This document shows positions 1,705-35,750 of a DNA stretch of 35,750 nt, piece by piece. The translations under genes and the position numbers were made by a program. Source of the DNA: an uncultured Ignavibacteriota bacterium. Lineage in GTDB: Bacteria > Bacteroidota > Ignavibacteria > Palsa-1295. How positions within the stretch are numbered: position 1 is the first letter of the stretch; every line of letters begins with the position of its first letter. The notes beneath the pieces were generated by a model that saw nothing but the letters and a program-made list of their open reading frames with translations, searched no databases and was not told the DNA's origin. The stretch covers positions 1 through 35,750 of the forward strand of contig CAIUMP010000048.1 in assembly GCA_903900335.1 (NCBI GenBank). Direction: 5' to 3'.

Positions 1705-2886
1705 ATGACCGACACGACCGCCGACGCACTCAGCTTCAAACTGACCGAAGACCAACAGGCCATCCGCGATCTCGCGCGCGATTTCGCCGAGACCGAACTC
1801 AAGCCACACCGCATGGAGTGGGATGAGTCCCAGCACTTCCCGATGGAAGCATTCAAGAAGATGGGTCAGCTGGGTTTCCTGGGCACGCTCGTCCAAACAG
1901 AGCTTGGCGGAGCTGGGCTTGGGGCAATGGAAAACACGATCATCATCGAGGAGATCGCCCGTGTGGATCCATCCGTTGCACTCTCGGTCGCAGCGCATAA
2001 CGGATTGTGTTCGAGCCATATCAATAAGTTTGCTTCCGAGGAGCTTCGCCAGAAGTACATGCCCGCGCTTGCGAAGGGAGAGATCCTCGGCGCATGGGGA
2101 CTCACGGAGCCATCGGCAGGCTCCGACGCAGGCGGCACGCGCACCGTCGCCGTTCGTGATGGCGATCATTACATCATCAATGGCGCAAAGAATTTTATCA
2201 CGCATGGCACCGTCGGTGACACCACGGTCATCATGGCCGTGACCGAACCGGGCAAGGGCGCGCGCGGAATTTCAGCATTTGTTCTTGAAAAGTCCATGCA
2301 GGGATTTTATGCCTCAAAGAAGGAGAACAAAGTCGGTATGCGCTGCTCGGATACTTCCAGCCTTGTGATGGAGAATGTCCGCGTGCCGGTGTCGCATCGG
2401 ATTGGTGAGGAAGGCGATGGCTTCCTACAAGCGCTGCAAATTTTGGACGGCGGTCGTATCTCTATCGCCGCGCTATCTGTTGGTTGCGCGCAGGGCGCGT
2501 TCGAAGCAGCGATCAAGTATGCGCAAGAACGTGAACAGTTTGGCAAGCCGATCGCACAGCAGCAGGCCACACAATTCAAACTTGCCGAGATGGCAATGAA
2601 GATCGAGGCTGCCCGCTCACTCACCTACAAATCAGCGTGGCTGCGCGACATGGGTCAGCCCTTCGGCAAGGCCGCGAGCATGGCGAAGTTATTCGCGAGC
2701 GAGACAGCGGTTCAAGTCTCTGAAGAGTCCGTGCAGATACACGGCGGCTACGGCTACATCAAGGAATATCCCGTCGAGAAATTCTGGCGGGATTCGAAGC
2801 TGCTCACCATTGGCGAGGGCACGAGCGAGGTGCAGCGCATGGTGATCGCGCGGCATTTGATCAAAGAGGGAGAGGCCGCAGGATAA
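1705..2886 (+). CDS. Acyl-CoA dehydrogenase
   Basis: A 393-aa flavoprotein of the short/medium-chain acyl-CoA dehydrogenase family. It catalyses FAD-dependent alpha,beta-desaturation of an acyl-CoA and passes electrons to electron-transferring flavoprotein. Family signatures are in order: WGLTEPSAGSDAGG (FAD/acyl-binding, about residues 133-146), an FITHG segment, REQFGKPI (about 275-282), QIHGGYGYIKEYPVEKFWRD (about 343-362), and IGEGTSEVQR, where Glu371 is the expected catalytic base. Length matches the family. The ATG at 1705 gives the usual short N-terminus before FKLTEDQQAIRDLARDF; upstream sequence is the C-rich repeat. It converges on the lipoprotein gene with only 5 bp between stop codons. 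Chain length is uncertain: butyryl-CoA or a branched-chain substrate is possible. Confidence 0.93.
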   Translation: MTDTTADALSFKLTEDQQAIRDLARDFAETELKPHRMEWDESQHFPMEAFKKMGQLGFLGTLVQTELGGAGLGAMENTIIIEEIARVDPSVALSVAAHNGLCSSHINKFASEELRQKYMPALAKGEILGAWGLTEPSAGSDAGGTRTVAVRDGDHYIINGAKNFITHGTVGDTTVIMAVTEPGKGARGISAFVLEKSMQGFYASKKENKVGMRCSDTSSLVMENVRVPVSHRIGEEGDGFLQALQILDGGRISIAALSVGCAQGAFEAAIKYAQEREQFGKPIAQQQATQFKLAEMAMKIEAARSLTYKSAWLRDMGQPFGKAASMAKLFASETAVQVSEESVQIHGGYGYIKEYPVEKFWRDSKLLTIGEGTSEVQRMVIARHLIKEGEAAG

Positions 2887-2891
2887 GCGTC

Positions 2892-3206
2892 TCAGTCAGC
2901 ACGCACGCTGCCTGTCCGTTCTATTGTGATGGCATAGCCATCAATTTCTCCCGGAAGCCGCGCCAGGTTAGCAGAATGATCTACAAAGATCACAACGGCT
3001 GGCTTGCCATCCTTGCGACTTTCTCCGGTGCCGATCACCCCCTCTAGTTTCATCCATCTAGGCGTACTATCGGCAAGGATCTGCGCTATCGTGCGGTGAC
3101 CCTTCGAAAACGCTGCGGTATCCATTGCAACCTCTGTGTTCGATTTCATAGGATGCGGCGCACACGAGAAGAGCATCAGTGAAAGCAGAGGAGTAACTAC
3201 CTTCAT
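2892..3206 (-). CDS. Small lipoprotein homologous to the N-terminal domain of the adjacent protease
   Basis: A 104-aa protein from the ATG at 3206. The N-terminus MKVVTPLLSLMLFSC is a lipoprotein signal with a lipobox ending at Cys15. The rest reads MKLEGVIGTGESRKDGKPAV, then VIFV, LPGEIDGYAI and ERTGSVRA. This matches the segment IPGVIGTGTGLDKSDPKQAV ... IPATVGG ... VGTARA of the upstream protease, so the two genes share one domain. A longer in-frame ATG at 3275 would place 23 non-signal-like residues in front and is rejected. The gene lies 72 bp downstream of the protease on the same strand, with a hairpin between. A guess is an envelope accessory or regulatory copy of the protease's N-terminal domain; no function is established. 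Confidence 0.75.
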   Translation of the reverse strand: MKVVTPLLSLMLFSCAPHPMKSNTEVAMDTAAFSKGHRTIAQILADSTPRWMKLEGVIGTGESRKDGKPAVVIFVDHSANLARLPGEIDGYAITIERTGSVRAD

Positions 3207-3223
3207 TGTTGCCTTATAAGAAT

Positions 3224-3256
3224 AGCCCCTGTAATCACTCAAAGAACACAGGGGCT
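3224..3256 (-). terminator. Intergenic hairpin between protease and lipoprotein genes
   Basis: A perfect 9-bp stem (AGCCCCTGT with ACAGGGGCT) with a 15-nt loop lies in the 72-bp gap. On the minus strand it is followed by ATTCTTATAA rather than a clean T-run. It may be a weak terminator or attenuator that lets some transcript through to the lipoprotein gene. Confidence 0.45.
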
Positions 3257-3278
3257 GAAGGTTTAAACATAGCAAAGA

Positions 3279-4475
3279 TCAAAAAGAGGAGGTCACAAAG
3301 CCCAGACCGAAGTCATGCGCGATGTGATCCATTCGATTCGCGAACGATGCCGTGCTCGAACCCGCGAAGTTGAGCCCGACGGGATTGTTGCTTCCATCGT
3401 TGGTCACCATCATCGAGCCAGAATCGCCTGCTTGAATGAACTGACCACTCACGTAGATCTGATCAACAAACGTTGCCGTGAAGCGGGAGTAACTCACCGT
3501 GATCGTAACGTTGATCCCGGCGATAGTCCCCGTCGTGTGGCCCGTTGTGCGTCCAACTTTCTGCACACCGAGATTGAGGCTTGGAGAGACCACTGTCGTC
3601 GAAGGCGTGTACCAATTATCTGGTGACATCGCTGGCGACCAGCCGCCGGAGAGCGAAGGATTACATTCAGCGATGGCGGCGTCGTAGTAATTGTTATGAC
3701 GGTTGTCGATGTAATTCCATGCGTAGAGCTTGCCGACCGCCCCAGATGTGCCACAGCTTACATCATAGCGGCCCGGCTGATCCTGCTGATCGGCCCCCGT
3801 TGCGGTATTCTCATTTGCGAAGACATGATTACAGCTAAGCATGAACTTGTGCGAGGTGGTTGAATACCCCGAGCTATAGACACGGATGACATCCCTGCTG
3901 GAACCGCTCGCCTCATACGTCCCGGAGTATGTGCCGGCGCTTGTTAACCTCGAAGTTGTGACGAGTGCACCGATGGAGCCCGAGGCACATTGATCGTTGT
4001 CGCCAACACTCACACCAGCAGGAAGCGGTGTGCGATAGGTCCCTGTGTATCCCGAGAAAGCCCTTGCTGTACCGACAAACTCCACACGGGTCTTCAGACC
4101 TCCAACAGTAGCAGGGATTCCCCGCACACCGGCAAGGCTCGTGAAGACAAGTATCACGGCCTGTTTCGGGTCCGACTTATCCAATCCAGTGCCGGTACCG
4201 ATGACACCCGGGATGGCCATCAAACTGGTCGTGTTTGCATCCTGAATTTTGATGGCGTGTTGAACGAAAGCAGGCTGGTTCGACCAGTCGGCATGATAAT
4301 TCGCATCTGGTCCGATCGACAGCGGTCCAGAAGACGGTGCGCTTCCCGAGGGTGCGTTCGGTGTGTTGCAGCCCCATATCGCAACCGCCAGCAACACCAG
4401 AAGCGCTATGGAAGAAAGGCCAAGGCCAAAGCGGGTGGAATAGAGCATTCGGGCAAAACCATGATTGTTTTTCAT
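3279..4475 (-). CDS. Lipoprotein trypsin-like serine protease (NAL1-like)
   Basis: About 398 aa from the ATG at 4475. A hydrophobic segment ends in a lipobox (VLLAVAIWGC, Cys36), so it is probably membrane-anchored. An N-terminal domain with GVIGTGTG and LP/IP-type motifs (about residues 70-140) precedes a chymotrypsin-fold domain. The visible triad is His217 (LSCNHVFAN), Asp265 (YYDAAIAEC) and Ser352 (QAGDSGSMM). The arrangement resembles plant NAL1-type and related bacterial trypsin-like proteins. Several cysteines suggest an exported, oxidised protein. The start could instead be the ATG at 4448, which gives a shorter, more typical signal (MLYSTRFGLGLSS). A hairpin and the related lipoprotein gene follow. 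The protease assignment is strong; the substrate is unknown. Confidence 0.85.
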   Translation of the reverse strand: MKNNHGFARMLYSTRFGLGLSSIALLVLLAVAIWGCNTPNAPSGSAPSSGPLSIGPDANYHADWSNQPAFVQHAIKIQDANTTSLMAIPGVIGTGTGLDKSDPKQAVILVFTSLAGVRGIPATVGGLKTRVEFVGTARAFSGYTGTYRTPLPAGVSVGDNDQCASGSIGALVTTSRLTSAGTYSGTYEASGSSRDVIRVYSSGYSTTSHKFMLSCNHVFANENTATGADQQDQPGRYDVSCGTSGAVGKLYAWNYIDNRHNNYYDAAIAECNPSLSGGWSPAMSPDNWYTPSTTVVSPSLNLGVQKVGRTTGHTTGTIAGINVTITVSYSRFTATFVDQIYVSGQFIQAGDSGSMMVTNDGSNNPVGLNFAGSSTASFANRMDHIAHDFGLGFVTSSF

Positions 4476-27581: not shown

Positions 27582-29126
27582 TTAGTGCGTAACGAGCACC
27601 TTCCGTACCACCCGCTCATCCCCAGCCTGCACAAGAGCAAAATACATCCCCGCCGGAAGTAGCGTGAGATCAACATCGAGCTTGCCCTCCCCGCGCTGCG
27701 AGAGAAGTTCGGTGCCCAAGAGGGAGAAGATGCGGCAGGTGGTAGTGGGTTGGTCGCCGGTGATTCGGAGGTGGTCGGAGTTTTGGGAGATGGTAATTGC
27801 TGGTGCTTGCGTGGCCTCTATACTCGCATTGACTTGGGAGTAGTCGAAGGAGAGATCGCCACAAGTCATTGTATCCATTTGCTGAACGCCCGGACTAAAC
27901 GCAATTTTGCGGCCTGCTGCCATAATGACTTTCAAATCACCGTTCTTGCCTTGATTTGAAAAATTTGCCCCGCGCTTTAGGTAATAGATCCCCTCTGGGG
28001 CGGATGTGGCCGTCACCGTTCCACCATCCTCCACGAAGATCGTCTGTGGATTGCCGACCCCACCGGTGGCTGTATAGTTACCACCTGATTTGACCCATAC
28101 CGCTCCGTCGTTTCCTTGTGCTGTGCCGGTTACCCTGCGAATAGCAAGTGGCAGGACTGGACGGCAGCCGGAGGGACTCACCAAAGAATAGTCAAAAGTA
28201 AGACCGTCACACTGGAAGGTTTCTTTGAACGAGCGCGCACTGTTACCATCAATCTTCATTCCGGAATCAATAATTAGGATTGAATAACCGGATTGGCTTG
28301 CAAAGGAGGATCCATTTCGCAGGTAAAAAGTCCCTACCCAATTACTCGCTGCATCAACATACCCTCCCGGTTCAACGAAGACCGTCTGGTCTCGCCCCGT
28401 GGTGGTGTACGCCCCTCCAGCTTGAACCCAGACGAATAGATCGCCACCGGTCTCGGTACCAGTCACCACATGCGCTCCGTGTGGAATTGTAGGGTTACAG
28501 TTGAAGACGTGAATATGGAAATTGACGGTTGAACTGCATCCCCCAACGTTCGTAACGGTGAGGGAGGCAGGCTTCGCGCCTGCCGTGGGATAGGTTACGG
28601 TTGGAGCGGCAAGCGTTGAAAGGGAAGGCGTGGCGTCTTGCGCACAAGTCCATTGATAGGTGGAACCTGCGGATTCGACTTTCCAGTCTTGGAGATTAAT
28701 TGTACTGTTGATAAGCCCCGCTGGTTCAACCGGAGCATGCTTCATCGTCTCCACTTCAACTGGTTCGGGAGTAGGATAGGCGGAAGAGATTACATCACTG
28801 TCGCATGGTGCCGAGAATAGATATGGATCGGAGGAGGCGACCCTGAACCGATAGTAGTTGCCCTCATAGATGAGAGGAAAGCGAAACTCACCCGCAGCGG
28901 TGCTGTCGTGACCGAAGTTCGTGAAATTGGCGAACGAACCCTTCGGACCGGAGACCTGGAGCGTGAAATGATTGTCCCCCGCAAACGAGCCGCCGGACTG
29001 ATACGCGATGATGAGCGTATCACCGACGCAGTAGGCATACTTCGTAATCGGCCCGAGGGTGATCGTCTGCGCCTCGGCCGAGGCGGCGGTAAGAAGCAGA
29101 AATAGAATGGGCTGTAGTAGTTTCAT
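27582..29126 (-). CDS. T9SS cargo protein, tandem family member 1 (duplicated middle module)
   Basis: 514 aa. Signal peptide MKLLQPILFLLLTAASAEAQ. Domains in order: an Ig-like unit TITLGPITK ... YCVGDTLII (20-115); a PKD-like unit (STYQWTCAQDATPS to TVTNVGGCSS, 155-200); then two copies of a beta-helix-like module, residues 210-314 and 321-430, each with 'VWVxxGGxYT', 'TVFVE/TIFVE-x-GG', 'YYLK/FYLR-x-G-x-x-F' and ending 'C-x-x-L-x-FDYS'. The C-terminal sorting domain starts about 455 (TTCRIFSLLGTELLSQRG ... AGMYFALVQAGDERVVRKVLV). It is last in a three-gene tandem array. The first 14 codons of the open frame before MKLLQ are the conserved inter-gene spacer and are not counted. Probably surface-displayed; ligand unknown. 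Confidence 0.85.
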   Translation of the reverse strand: MKLLQPILFLLLTAASAEAQTITLGPITKYAYCVGDTLIIAYQSGGSFAGDNHFTLQVSGPKGSFANFTNFGHDSTAAGEFRFPLIYEGNYYRFRVASSDPYLFSAPCDSDVISSAYPTPEPVEVETMKHAPVEPAGLINSTINLQDWKVESAGSTYQWTCAQDATPSLSTLAAPTVTYPTAGAKPASLTVTNVGGCSSTVNFHIHVFNCNPTIPHGAHVVTGTETGGDLFVWVQAGGAYTTTGRDQTVFVEPGGYVDAASNWVGTFYLRNGSSFASQSGYSILIIDSGMKIDGNSARSFKETFQCDGLTFDYSLVSPSGCRPVLPLAIRRVTGTAQGNDGAVWVKSGGNYTATGGVGNPQTIFVEDGGTVTATSAPEGIYYLKRGANFSNQGKNGDLKVIMAAGRKIAFSPGVQQMDTMTCGDLSFDYSQVNASIEATQAPAITISQNSDHLRITGDQPTTTCRIFSLLGTELLSQRGEGKLDVDLTLLPAGMYFALVQAGDERVVRKVLVTH

Positions 29127-29340
29127 ACTATAGAAACGCAAAAACCGCCCCCGGTTACAAGAATTCATCTAAATATCCTAATACGCCACCACAATCTTCC
29201 TCACCACCCGCTCTTCCCCAGCCTGCACGATAGCAAAATACATCCCCGCCGGAAGCTGAGTGAGATCGACATCGAGCGAGCCATCCCCGCGCTGCGAGAG
29301 GAGTGGAGTGCCCAAGAGCGAGAAGATGCGGCAGGTGGTA
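29041..29340. repeat. Direct repeat across gene junctions, copy 1
   Basis: 29041-29340 matches 30301-30600 at a constant offset of 1260 bp, with roughly 18 differences in 300 by eye and only two in the first 170. It spans the signal-peptide start of one cargo gene, the 51-bp spacer, and the sorting domain end of the next gene. Confidence 0.9.
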
Positions 29341-30386
29341 GCACCCGTTGCTCTTACTTGAAAATCATTCTGCCTCTCATCAATTTGGATTTTGGGAAGA
29401 CACAACGACTCCCCGTCCACCCCCAGCAGCGAATAGTCGAAACTCAAAGCACTGCAACACACCGTGTCATAAAGGTCGCCGAAATCCCCATTCGTATATC
29501 CAGAATTCGAAGCCAAGATGAACTGAGCCGATCCACCATCCTTGCCAAAGTTGAGGGACGCACCTTTGAGCATATAGATGATGTCGAACGATTGATTCCC
29601 AAGATTGAGCGCACCGCCCGCTTCAACAAAAATAGTTTGGTTGCTCCTCGCAACATAATTCGCCCCAGCCTTAACTAGGACGTTTGTATAACCCAACGGC
29701 CCCTCGTTCCCGCGAACCACATACGTGTTTGCCGGAATCTGGGGATTACAAGAAGCGACAAGATACGCCACGCCCTGAGAGGTACTACAACCGGCGCTAT
29801 TCGTGACAGTTAAGGTTGCGGTCTTAACCCCATCAGACGAATACACTACGGTTGGCTTAGGGTCTGTGGACATTATTGGTACTGCATCCTCATGGAACAC
29901 CCATTGATAGGTGTCACCGGAGCGTCCGCCTCCAGCCGTAAATGTGATTGGCTCACCAGCAAGCCCGAATACACGGCGTTCACCGAAAATAAAGAGATAC
30001 TCGTGACCCCTGGTTTCGGAAAGTATTGGAGATGGGTAAGGCGAAACCGAAAGGTCCACGCCATTATCAGCCGAGGCCATGTACGGATCAGTAGAGCTCA
30101 CTCTCACTCTGAAACGGCTTCCAAGCTTCGGCAATGGTACTGCAATCGCTCCGCTGTTAAGTAAAGCATGACCAACATTCGTGAATCCAGCAAAGGACCC
30201 TGTGTCGTCAGACATTTGAGCAGTAAAGAAATTGCCTGGCTTAAACGTCCCACTCGCCGTGTACGGCACCACCATCGTATCCCCCACGCAATACACCGTC
30301 TTCGTAATCGGCCCAAGGGTGATCGTCTGCGCCTCGGCCGAGGCGGCGGTAAGAAGCAGAAATAGAATGGGCTGTAGTAGTTTCAT
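29178..30386 (-). CDS. T9SS cargo protein, tandem family member 2
   Basis: 402 aa. The signal peptide and first residues are the same as member 1 (MKLLQPILFLLLTAASAEAQ, then TITLGPITK). Then come the Ig-like unit YCVGDTMVVPYTASGTF, a PKD-like unit (GDTYQWVFHEDAVPIM ... TVTNSAGCSTSQG), and one beta-helix-like module from CNPQIPANTYVVRGNEG through VLVKAGANY, TIFVEAGG, MLKGASLNFG to LSFDYS. The sorting domain is TTCRIFSLLGTPLLSQRG ... EERVVRKIVVAY. The 51-bp spacers on both sides are nearly identical to each other in sequence. A short stem (AACCG / CGGTT) followed by T's sits in each spacer on the minus strand, possibly an attenuator. Function unknown; cargo and surface display are inferred from the sorting domain. 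Confidence 0.85.
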   Translation of the reverse strand: MKLLQPILFLLLTAASAEAQTITLGPITKTVYCVGDTMVVPYTASGTFKPGNFFTAQMSDDTGSFAGFTNVGHALLNSGAIAVPLPKLGSRFRVRVSSTDPYMASADNGVDLSVSPYPSPILSETRGHEYLFIFGERRVFGLAGEPITFTAGGGRSGDTYQWVFHEDAVPIMSTDPKPTVVYSSDGVKTATLTVTNSAGCSTSQGVAYLVASCNPQIPANTYVVRGNEGPLGYTNVLVKAGANYVARSNQTIFVEAGGALNLGNQSFDIIYMLKGASLNFGKDGGSAQFILASNSGYTNGDFGDLYDTVCCSALSFDYSLLGVDGESLCLPKIQIDERQNDFQVRATGATTCRIFSLLGTPLLSQRGDGSLDVDLTQLPAGMYFAIVQAGEERVVRKIVVAY

Positions 30387-30600
30387 ACTATAGAAACGCA
30401 AAAACCGCCTCCGGTTACAAGAATTCATCTAAATATCCTAATACGCCACCACAATCTTCCTCACCACCCGCTCATCCCCTGCCTGCACAATAGCAAAATA
30501 CATCCCCGCCGGAAGTAGCGTGAGATCAACATCGAGCTTGCCCTCCCCGCGCTGCGAGAGGAGTTCGGTGCCCAAGAGGAAGAAGATGCGGCAGGTGGTG
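30301..30600. repeat. Direct repeat across gene junctions, copy 2
   Basis: Partner of 29041-29340 at an offset of exactly 1260 bp. It covers the 5' end of member 2, the spacer, and the 3' end of member 3. Recombination between the copies would delete or duplicate one cargo gene cleanly. Confidence 0.9.
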
Positions 30601-31682
30601 GCGGGTTGGTCGTCGGTGATGCGGAGGTGGTTGGAGTTTTGGGAAATTGTGATTGATGGTTGAGGTATGTCGTTGACGCTTCCGGATACTTGAGAGTAAT
30701 CGAATGCTAAGCCAGTACAATTGAAGGAATCCACTCCATCTTGGTTAGCATCGAAAGGCTGCCCACGCAGCATAACTACGGTGTTGAAACCGACATCGTG
30801 CCTTGCGAAAGAAGCCCCCGGCTTTAGGTAAAAGACGCAATAGTGGCTACCGCCAACGAATGCCGCGCCACCAGGCTCGACAAATATTAATTGATAACCT
30901 GCCCCAGCCGTGTAATTAGCTCCGGCTTTTACCCAGACCGCAGAATCGCCGCCACCCTCAGAACCAGTTACGATGTGCACATTCCGCGGAATTATGGGAG
31001 AACAGGTCAGCACACGGAACAAGAAACCTGTAGTGTCTGAACATCCCGCGCGGTTTGACACTACGAGTTTTCCTGTCTTAATTCCAGGTGTTGAATAGGA
31101 AACACGCACGGAATCGGAGCTTGCTTTGGAGGGGCTTGCATCTTGGTCGAAGAACCAAAGGAACGTAGAACCAGCTGGCTCACTAATTCCACCATTGAGT
31201 CCAATAGGGTCGCTAACAAAGCCGATTGGCCAGATCGCATCTTTTCTGTTTACATCCGAGATTACAATAGCATAATCTCCGAAGATTGCCATACCTCGAT
31301 CAACATTCCAGCGAGGTGACGCGTGTGGGTGAGGTAGCACAGCTATATCGGAATCGAAAGGTGGGGAAATGATATAGGGATCGGTTGAAGAAACCCGAAC
31401 TCTATACTTTGCTCCCACATTGCTCAGCCGGATTTTAAACGAAGAACTCACCAATGAATCGTGACCCAGATTCGAAAATCCGATGAATGAGCTGGTATCA
31501 TCAGAGAGCTGCGCGGTGAAGAAGTTATCCGTGCCAAACGTCCCACTCGCCTGATACGGCACCACAATCGTATCCCCCACGCAATACACAGTCTTCGCAA
31601 TCGGCCCAAGCGTGATGGTCTGCGCCGCGAGGAAGCGCGGCGCGAGGAGGAGCAGTGTGATACCCAACCAAATGTGTCTCAT
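30438..31682 (-). CDS. T9SS cargo protein, tandem family member 3 (first in the array)
   Basis: 414 aa from the ATG at 31682. The signal peptide differs from the others (MRHIWLGITLLLLAPRFLAAQ), but the mature start TITLGPIAKTVYCVGDTIVV is the same. Ig-like unit with FFTAQLSDDTSSFIGFSNLG, PKD-like unit (GSTFLWFFDQDASPS ... VSNRAGCSDTTG), one beta-helix-like module (CSPIIPRNVHIVTGSEGGG, AVWVKAGANYT, IFVEPGGAAF, FYLKPGASF, LAFDYS), then the sorting domain TTCRIFFLLGTELLSQRG ... RKIVVAY. The C-terminal quarter is closest to member 1, including ITISQNSNHLRIT. Its promoter presumably serves the array. 71 further in-frame codons upstream are not signal-like and are rejected. Confidence 0.85.
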   Translation of the reverse strand: MRHIWLGITLLLLAPRFLAAQTITLGPIAKTVYCVGDTIVVPYQASGTFGTDNFFTAQLSDDTSSFIGFSNLGHDSLVSSSFKIRLSNVGAKYRVRVSSTDPYIISPPFDSDIAVLPHPHASPRWNVDRGMAIFGDYAIVISDVNRKDAIWPIGFVSDPIGLNGGISEPAGSTFLWFFDQDASPSKASSDSVRVSYSTPGIKTGKLVVSNRAGCSDTTGFLFRVLTCSPIIPRNVHIVTGSEGGGDSAVWVKAGANYTAGAGYQLIFVEPGGAAFVGGSHYCVFYLKPGASFARHDVGFNTVVMLRGQPFDANQDGVDSFNCTGLAFDYSQVSGSVNDIPQPSITISQNSNHLRITDDQPATTCRIFFLLGTELLSQRGEGKLDVDLTLLPAGMYFAIVQAGDERVVRKIVVAY

Positions 31683-32207: not shown

Positions 32208-32975
32208 TTATCTCGACGAACTCCCCCCGCTCCCAGGCGTTGGGCTGGGTGACGGCGCAATACCGGAATCAACATTCTCATTCAGGCGCTCGACCGCGCC
32301 CGTCAGCGGCAAGCGGACACCGGAGCCGAGTTCTTTCAGCGCGCTCTTCGTCATGATGTTGTCGATGAGGTGATACTCCTGCGCTTGCGTTGGCGACATG
32401 TAATTATCGCGTTCGGCGTCCTTTGCAATTTGCTCGACGGCCTTGCCGGTGTGCTCGGAGTAGATCTTGTAGAGGTCTTCGCGGATTCGAAGCATCTCCT
32501 TCGTGTAGATTTCGATGTCCGTCGCCTGACCCTGCGTTCCGCCGAGCGGCTGGTGGATCATGATGCGCGAGTGCGGCAGCGATGTACGTTTGCCCGCTGC
32601 TCCGCCCGCAAGCAGCAGCGATGCCATTGAGGCCGCCATGCCGAGACAGATCGTCGCGCAGTCCGGCTTGATGTATTGCATCGTGTCATAGACCGCAAGC
32701 CCCGCCGAGACCGATCCGCCGGGCGAGTTGATGTAGATATTGATATCGCGGTCCGGGTCTTCCGACTCCAAAAAGAGCAACTGCGCGATAAGCAGCGACG
32801 ACACGTTATCGTCGATCGGTGTGCCGATAAAGACGATGCGCTCCTTGAGCAAACGCGAGTAAATGTCATACGCGCGCTCGCCACGGGAGGTCTGCTCGAC
32901 GACCATCGGCACCAGCGCCGAACGCACAGATTGACTCATCGGAAAGTTGTTGAAATTCGGTATATTCGTATTCAT
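32208..32975 (-). CDS. clpP: ATP-dependent Clp protease proteolytic subunit ClpP, with extended C-terminus
   Basis: 255 aa. The catalytic triad is Ser116 (GMAASMASL), His141 (MIHQPLGG) and Asp190 (ERDNYMSP), each 19 residues later than in mature E. coli ClpP. Other family blocks are [20 protein letters not shown] and [13 protein letters not shown]. The N-terminus up to about residue 24 probably includes a short propeptide. After the normal end (LIDNIMTK, 210) there is an extra 45-residue tail, finishing in a Pro/Ser/Gly-rich low-complexity stretch ([16 protein letters not shown]). It lies 119 bp downstream of tig on the same strand and ends in a strong terminator; clpX is not adjacent. ATG at 32975. 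Confidence 0.97.
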
Positions 32976-34928: not shown

Positions 34929-35750
34929 ATGAAACGTGCGTGTCTGTTTCTGATGCTCTTCGCGTTGGTTGGTGCTTCCAACCCGACTCTTCTCCGCGCG
35001 CAAATCTCAAGTTCTGCCTTCGACCCCAACTGCTACCAGCCGCGAATCGGTGTGCCGGGAGAGATCGATACGATTTATGGTTCGTACTCCGGGCAGCAGC
35101 TCGGCGGCAACCAGTTCTCGCCGGGGCCGGGGCCGAACGGGTACAATCGGGTCTTCTTTACAGGGTATGTGAATAATCTAAACGGGTCTGACATCCTCGT
35201 AGGAGGGCCAGGGTTCAACTTGCAAAACCTCGATCCCCCTAAGTCTTCACTCAAGTTATCACCGGGCATGTACACGGGTCATTTCCATTCGTCGAAATTC
35301 AATGACATCCTGTTTACAACTGGGCTGATTCCGCAAATCTATTGGGCTGATTCAAACGGAAATTTCGACAGTTCTCGGCGAACGGTTCTTAGGTATCGGA
35401 CAAGACCTGGGCCACCGAATAATGCGTTCAATTACGACATTTTTTCACCCTACATTGGGTACTTGACCAGCGATAGCGTAAGCGACATTGTATTGTGTTG
35501 TCGGACAAAAATGCAGGGAGGGCTCGACAGCCTCTTTGTCGTGCATTACACTGGAGGGGCAGCACTCTACAAACCAGGCGACACTGTCCTTAACGACGAT
35601 GCGGCATACTTTCCATACGATCATAATCGATCCTATCTGAATCGCAATGGTGGGTCGGGTGACCTTCGATCCACGGGGCGGAGTGACTATGTAGCGACTG
35701 ACCTTTATGGCAATGTATTCCATTTCAAGAATGATCCACCGTTCGATCTT
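34929..35750 (+). CDS. Secreted FG-GAP/VCBS-like repeat protein, 3'-truncated by contig end (copy 2)
   Basis: The frame is open from the ATG at 34929 to the last base, 274 codons with no stop. Signal peptide MKRACLFLMLFALVGA ... LLRAQ (cleavage about 25), then the same conserved SSSAFDPNCYQPRIGVPGEI start and Pro/Gly-rich block as the gene at 1-837. Repeats 'GHFHSSKFNDILFTTG ... IYWADSNGNFDSSRR' and 'GYLTSDSVSDIVLCC' follow. Some DNA blocks are identical to copy 1 (35016-35137 and 35610-35750), while the stretch between is clearly diverged. The two genes face outward at opposite contig ends. Beyond the end the two copies must stay identical for at least a short way. Ligand and role unknown. 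Confidence 0.78.
   Translation, partial: MKRACLFLMLFALVGASNPTLLRAQISSSAFDPNCYQPRIGVPGEIDTIYGSYSGQQLGGNQFSPGPGPNGYNRVFFTGYVNNLNGSDILVGGPGFNLQNLDPPKSSLKLSPGMYTGHFHSSKFNDILFTTGLIPQIYWADSNGNFDSSRRTVLRYRTRPGPPNNAFNYDIFSPYIGYLTSDSVSDIVLCCRTKMQGGLDSLFVVHYTGGAALYKPGDTVLNDDAAYFPYDHNRSYLNRNGGSGDLRSTGRSDYVATDLYGNVFHFKNDPPFDL
35610..35750. repeat. Terminal inverted repeat, right copy (141 bp, exact)
   Basis: Exact reverse complement of bases 1-141, inside the second truncated surface-protein gene. The boundary is sharp at 35610. Confidence 0.95.

Follow-up and report, generated by a model that had tools for sequence, protein, structure and literature searches.

The window analysed here is a stretch of 35,750 nucleotides, contig C48 of a 4.0-Mb genome of soil-type Kapaibacteria in 62 contigs. 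The named genomes closest to it are metagenome-assembled ones that carry the labels Candidatus Kapaibacterium, Ignavibacteriae and Bacteroidetes. A scan of named genomes for conspecifics returned other species only. Between clpP/tig and an M3 peptidase/clpX pair the window holds an array of three genes on the minus strand (m1, m2 and m3), all intact open reading frames (ORFs) with 9-bp gaps between neighbours (Table 1). The mechanical ORF of m3 extends to 31895, and the true start of m2 is likely the ATG at 30386. An earlier sequence-only reading of this DNA had described three adjacent T9SS cargo genes, and this was borne out by the ORFs and by the type A sorting domain (NCBIfam TIGR04183), which scored above its cut-off in all three. 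The host genome encodes a T9SS translocon (SprA family TIGR04189, 772 bits against a cut-off of 200) and at least 150 type A sorting domains, and the N-terminus of m1-m3, as read from the sequence, is a hydrophobic stretch ending A-x-A-Q. These features support the assignment of m1-m3 as predicted T9SS type A cargo.

Table 1. Features of the three-gene array and its neighbour (window coordinates).
Feature	Coordinates	Strand	Evidence
m1, T9SS cargo protein, 528 aa; predicted signal peptide, N-terminal beta-sandwich, PKD-like domain, two beta-helix-like modules, type A CTD	27582..29168	-	ORF; TIGR04183 27.8 bits, cut-off 23
m2, T9SS cargo protein, 416 aa	29178..30428	-	ORF; PKD_4 9e-8; TIGR04183 30.4 bits; AlphaFold2 model
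m3, T9SS cargo protein, 414 aa from ATG	30438..31682	-	TIGR04183 23.9 bits
Inner junction copy 1: m2 3' end, spacer, promoter motif, m1 5' end	29016..29339	-	92-94% identical to copy 2
Inner junction copy 2: m3 3' end, spacer, promoter motif, m2 5' end	30276..30599	-	offset 1260
m1 CTD-coding tract common to m3 (30456-30660)	27600..27804	-	205 bp, 92.7%
ECF-sigma-like promoter motif TGTAACC-N13-GCGTTT before m1	29134..29159	-	10 sites vs 0 control, own genome; 62 vs 2, seven genomes
ECF-sigma-like promoter motif before m2	30394..30419	-	same motif counts as m1 site
clpP, conserved upstream neighbour, marks site in sister species	32208..32975	-	CLP_protease 1e-82; synteny

The AlphaFold2 model of m2 (pLDDT 79.8) was almost entirely beta, and its strand groups are compatible with four parts: a sandwich at the N-terminus, a PKD-like domain, a short section resembling a beta-helix, and the CTD. 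In m1 the beta-helix-like module is duplicated, the copies being 42% alike at the amino acid level and 48% at the DNA level. The best Pfam matches of m1-m3 were PKD and Por_Secre_tail. A fold search gave weak Ig-like matches only, the best being a fragment of Aureispira GhpA (TM 0.26-0.31), and a specific function was therefore not assigned. The three products are best read as paralogous, T9SS-exported, modular, beta-rich surface proteins, probably adhesin-like.

Shared ends and diverged middles

The array had been read as having junction repeats of about 300 bp at an exact 1260-bp offset. The offset was exact, and the best block spanned about 300-324 bp with longest exact runs of 94 and 63 bp. 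Its edges were sharp, matches falling from 19/20 to 3/20 at 29340 and from 19/20 to 12/20 at 29040. Chimeric joins made by the assembly at short repeats would be one way to obtain such a layout, and both the exact 94-bp repeat and the fact that several contigs of this assembly, this one included, break in near-identical repeats speak for it. However, about 6-8% of sites are different between the two junctions and mismatches flank the exact run on both sides, the ORFs are intact and an independent array of the same design occurs in another genome (G001, see below), making an artefact highly improbable.

The partner with which each gene shares its DNA changes by tract. The signal regions of m1 and m2 were 97-100% identical, and m1 and m3 had the closest C-terminal DNA (205 bp, about 93%), both as previously noted. 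The signal-peptide DNA of m3 was unlike the others, and about 90 bp of its mature N-terminus was about 90% like m2. The last 35 bp of m2 match m3, while those of m1 differ, so that each outer edge of the array is unique, the repeats being confined to the inner junctions; homologous sequence had been claimed for every gene boundary, and this holds for the inner ones. Thus the signal peptide pairs m1 with m2, the mature start and last 35 bp pair m2 with m3, and the CTD pairs m1 with m3. In a permutation run test, the 5' tract of m1/m2 was significant at p<1e-4 and the 3' tract of m2/m3 at p=4e-4. The middles of all three genes align along their full length at 38-41% amino acid identity, and therefore represent a single architecture in diverged forms rather than inserts with no relationship to each other.

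Synonymous divergence was 0.00-0.1 for the 5' ends of m1 and m2 and 0.04-0.3 for the CTD region, as compared to about 0.7-1.1 (saturated) in the middles. To remove protein constraint from the comparison, only fourfold-degenerate codons with a conserved amino acid were counted. Fourfold identity was 23/27 at the m1/m2 5' end versus 17/62 in the middle (p 4e-7), 26/31 at the m2/m3 3' end versus 14/57 (p 8e-8) and 29/34 at the m1/m3 3' end versus 16/58 (p 6e-8). Overall, fourfold agreement was 65-85% for the ends of array neighbours and 25-28% for the middles; the exception among the ends was the m1/m3 5' end, which had no fourfold excess. The controls, namely the orthologues G1clp and G2clp and non-adjacent paralogues of the same genome, showed no contrast between end and middle.

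These counts bear on a reading without recombination, in which the ends are under strong constraint and the middles change fast. The signal peptide, mature start and CTD are functional, as such a reading would expect, but silent third positions are identical in the ends too, and only between array neighbours, the spacers are identical as well and the orthologue controls are flat. Protein-level constraint is thereby ruled out as the cause of the similar ends, and we regard this reading as very unlikely. Recombination between paralogue ends is well supported by the fourfold result, with the DNA comparisons indicating exchange between the ends of m1-m3. Constant ends with variable middles, as first described, is an apt summary for ends made alike by DNA exchange, with the corrections that the middles are homologous and that m3 lacks the shared signal-peptide DNA.

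Promoter-like motif in the junctions

The leaders of m1 and m2 carry TGTAACC-N13-GCGTTT. The motif was counted against reversed controls in its own genome and its core was counted over seven genomes of the genus (Table 1); a first, long form matched the own genome only and the short core is genus-wide. It was found before several genes whose products start signal-peptide-like, and in other species immediately upstream of family genes (G001:C5:100905, G001:C1:262146 and G002:C122:18222). It also precedes an ECF sigma gene on contig C37 (TIGR02937 85.5 bits vs 42.9; L101 1541-2179), which suggests a possible autoregulated regulon of secreted proteins. The m1/m2 motif fits an ECF-sigma promoter, and may function as one. 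In P. gingivalis, the ECF sigma factor SigP is known to control the T9SS (PMC4800418). The ECF-like -10 element is followed by the ATG of m1 and of m2 at a distance of about 10-15 bases (window 29126-29159 and 30386-30419), so near that the mRNAs of both genes may have little or no leader. m3 differs from both in that TATATTTG precedes its ATG.

Relatives and the rest of the genome

Family genes downstream of clpP numbered 3, 1, 1, 1, 1, 0 and 0 in seven species of the genus, with three genes here, one in G001, G002, G004 and G005 and none in G003 and G006. No family relics were found at the empty clpP sites of G003, G006, G007, G008 and G011, and the flanks of the window array held no convincing family relics. 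The middle of m3 was 48-50% identical in amino acids to the clpP-site genes of G001 and G002 versus 38-40% to m1 and m2, and by sequence m3 is the probable positional counterpart of the single gene of the sister species. Nonetheless, the CTD of m3 sits with m1 and m2: the CTD tree grouped the three together and rejected two other groupings, that of m3 and its positional counterparts (AU p 0.005) and that of m2 and G1a, a gene of another species (AU p 2e-8). Trees of the middle region were poorly resolved and did not reject m1+m2+m3 as one clade (p 0.14-0.27), so topology alone is no proof of mosaicism. The m2 middle grouped with G1a with support of 99/91 in a set of 30 rows and 53/74 in a set of 16, and with this fall in support we dropped the claim that middle-region phylogeny demonstrates an imported body.

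G001 carries a second array elsewhere, a separate gene pair whose spacer measures 10 bp. The 5' ends of this pair are young (190 bp at 92%) and its middles saturated, fourfold identity being 25/31 in the former versus 22/61 in the latter. Its junction is repeated past the last gene and followed by an orphan signal-peptide start, a relic. From the copy-number differences and this remnant it follows that family arrays vary in size between species and leave remnants. Two further loci were seen. A further array in G009 (L063, G009:C8) consists of three or four related genes, between which repeat blocks at about 71-90% are numerous. In G001 (L230, G001:C1:416500-423300) neighbouring T9SS genes of about 3 kb have their 3' two thirds in common (85%) and not the first kilobase, a layout that differs from m1-m3 in that the front is the variable part.

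The array had also been put forward as a possible diversity-generating locus, with the same three genes, order and junctions in distant relatives as the sign of a stable array. That sign was not found, the number of genes at the site varying from 0 to 3 between species. A locus at which cells routinely add, delete or shuffle members would agree with the homologous inner junctions, the variable copy number and the orphan relic of G001. Yet all three ORFs are intact, the mutual saturation of the bodies means that there was no recent body exchange inside the array, and a single reverse-transcriptase match was found in the genome, on another contig and none near. We consider an active generator unlikely: end exchange and varying copy number stand from the original proposal and a dedicated generator does not, the middles being slowly diverged homologues instead of interchangeable cassettes and the site having no reverse-transcriptase machinery. 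A DGR was rejected with the only RVT_1 match of the genome on C3 and none on this contig, and none of the window proteins scanned was recognisable as a recombinase. In silent-cassette antigenic variation of the vls/pilS type, promoterless partial donor copies feed one expression site. This too was rejected, the array having three full ORFs, with m1 and m2 each carrying its own promoter-like motif.

Recurrence was assessed in 108 T9SS cargo genes sampled from this genome, with neighbours preferred, and end sharing was scored as a block of >=60 bp at >=85% between cargo genes that reached the stop-codon region. Fifteen of the 108 shared ends, four of these being fragments at contig starts whose bodies are not visible. 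Diverged bodies with shared ends were found in neighbours on C25 (251 bp, 94%) and on C4 (250 bp, 92%) and in dispersed genes on C17 and C21 (310 bp, 92%), and some genes had different partners at their two ends, such as C61:117939, whose 5' end matches C62 and whose 3' end matches C7. At the same 85% threshold none of 91 sampled cargo genes of G001 shared ends, so the process differs within the genus and is particular to this lineage or to recent time; genus-wide end sharing is not claimed.

C61 and C62 carry divergent T9SS gene pairs with flanks of 492 bp and 406 bp at 93-94% (L127 C61:113500-125000, 1869-3588; L128 C62:90500-98500, 1809-4045). The intergenic region, the signal-peptide starts and the downstream flank are near-identical and the body is 310 aa in one versus 482 aa in the other, suggesting that these bodies may differ through body replacement. 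For m1-m3 the equivalent would be a recent tandem duplication followed by replacement of the body with a diverged homologue, imported or from the same genome and anchored in the constant ends, with the ends young since the duplication is young. In its favour, the inner junctions take in the non-coding spacer and promoter, and the C61/C62 pairs and the better supported of the two trees joining m2 to G1a point the same way. Against it, that grouping weakens in the smaller set, and neighbours differ in which tracts they share, a pattern that a single duplication would not produce. We regard body replacement as possible but rather doubtful for this array.

Similar repeats were seen at contig ends. 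At either end of the window lies the 5' part of a gene for a secreted protein, the two genes being paralogous and inverted relative to each other (1-852 on the minus strand, 34929-35750 on the plus strand), with 163 bp of the mature N-terminus alike at 94%, the last 153-183 bp at 93-98% and the stretch between diverged; with near-identical tracts around a diverged stretch, these contig ends are mosaic repeats of the kind seen in the array. Contigs C50 and C51 (L120/L121) start in near-identical CTD-coding sequence (95% over 402 bp), as do C8 and C56 (L122/L123; 99% over 294 bp), and CTD repeats therefore break the assembly. Such gene ends are a warning for metagenome assemblies in general.

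Origin of the array and comparison with known systems

We favour the reading, as the probable one, that m1-m3 are old tandem paralogues whose ends were repeatedly overwritten by homologous recombination while the middles keep their old differences. It rests on the T9SS signal, the saturated middles, the young ends, the sharp borders, the copy-number differences between species and the recurrence in this genome. An old tandem expansion downstream of clpP would have given rise to the three genes, and recombination between neighbours, presumably gene conversion and/or unequal crossing-over, would then have repeatedly overwritten the CTD-coding 3' end, the short spacer with its ECF-type promoter and the signal-peptide 5' end. 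The middles would have been too diverged to recombine. The mixed partners of m2, with a signal peptide like m1 and last 35 bp and mature start like m3, are consistent with repeated overwriting of the ends. The same process would also have reached other T9SS cargo genes of this genome, both tandem and dispersed. Gene conversion, unequal crossing-over and duplication with body replacement are all candidate modes of exchange.

A broader and tentative proposal is that recombination is anchored, genome-wide, in the sorting domain and in the promoter/signal-peptide leader. The cargo genes, more than 150 in number, would then form a single exchange network, with heads and tails swapped or overwritten between tandem and dispersed genes. 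If true, new bodies could be put under export and regulation. No description of end-limited exchange as a genome-wide feature of T9SS cargo was found in the open-licence literature searched. The array suggests how one genome with at least 150 sorting-domain proteins diversifies bodies while export signal and promoter stay uniform.

In concerted evolution of tandem gene families, inner junctions are homogenised and outer edges remain unique. m1-m3 have the same pattern of inner junctions and outer edges, but the ends alone are homogenised, presumably since the bodies are too diverged. The earlier statement that the layout could not be matched to a described system was too strong, as babA/babB of H. 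pylori and the KLIKK genes of T. forsythia have the same layout of constant ends and divergent bodies. In the Bab proteins of H. pylori the N- and C-termini are near-identical and the middle is divergent, with chimeras arising through gene conversion from one locus to another (PMC4552749). Like babA/babB/babC, m1-m3 encode surface proteins with near-identical ends and a divergent middle at the DNA level. However, bab genes occupy dispersed loci of a host pathogen with chimeras between strains, whereas m1-m3 are in tandem with 9-bp spacers in one genome of Kapaibacteria, have a T9SS sorting domain and carry the promoter inside the repeat. No Helicobacter outer-membrane family was among the Pfam matches of m1-m3.

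The KLIKK proteases of T. forsythia are clustered T9SS cargo with virtually identical CTDs, called unusual by the authors, and the identical motifs may have led to assembly errors (PMC4404884). Clustered T9SS cargo genes with like CTDs and differing bodies are common to both systems, but KLIKK proteins are proteases with different catalytic domains whereas m1-m3 have homologous bodies without a recognised enzyme domain, share signal-peptide ends and spacer as well, and have a design that recurs across the genome. The Pfam search found no protease domain in m1-m3, and their C-termini end RKVLVTH or RKIVVAY. End-limited exchange might also account for the as yet unexplained identity of the CTDs among the Tannerella KLIKK genes. 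In P. gingivalis, the T9SS cargo gingipain/HagA is diversified by modular domain rearrangement and allelic exchange (PMC5266723); there the change lies in repeated adhesin domains within genes, and in m1-m3 it lies in the ends of tandem paralogues. The array is a measured, clear case of end-limited exchange in T9SS surface-protein genes beyond the oral pathogens.
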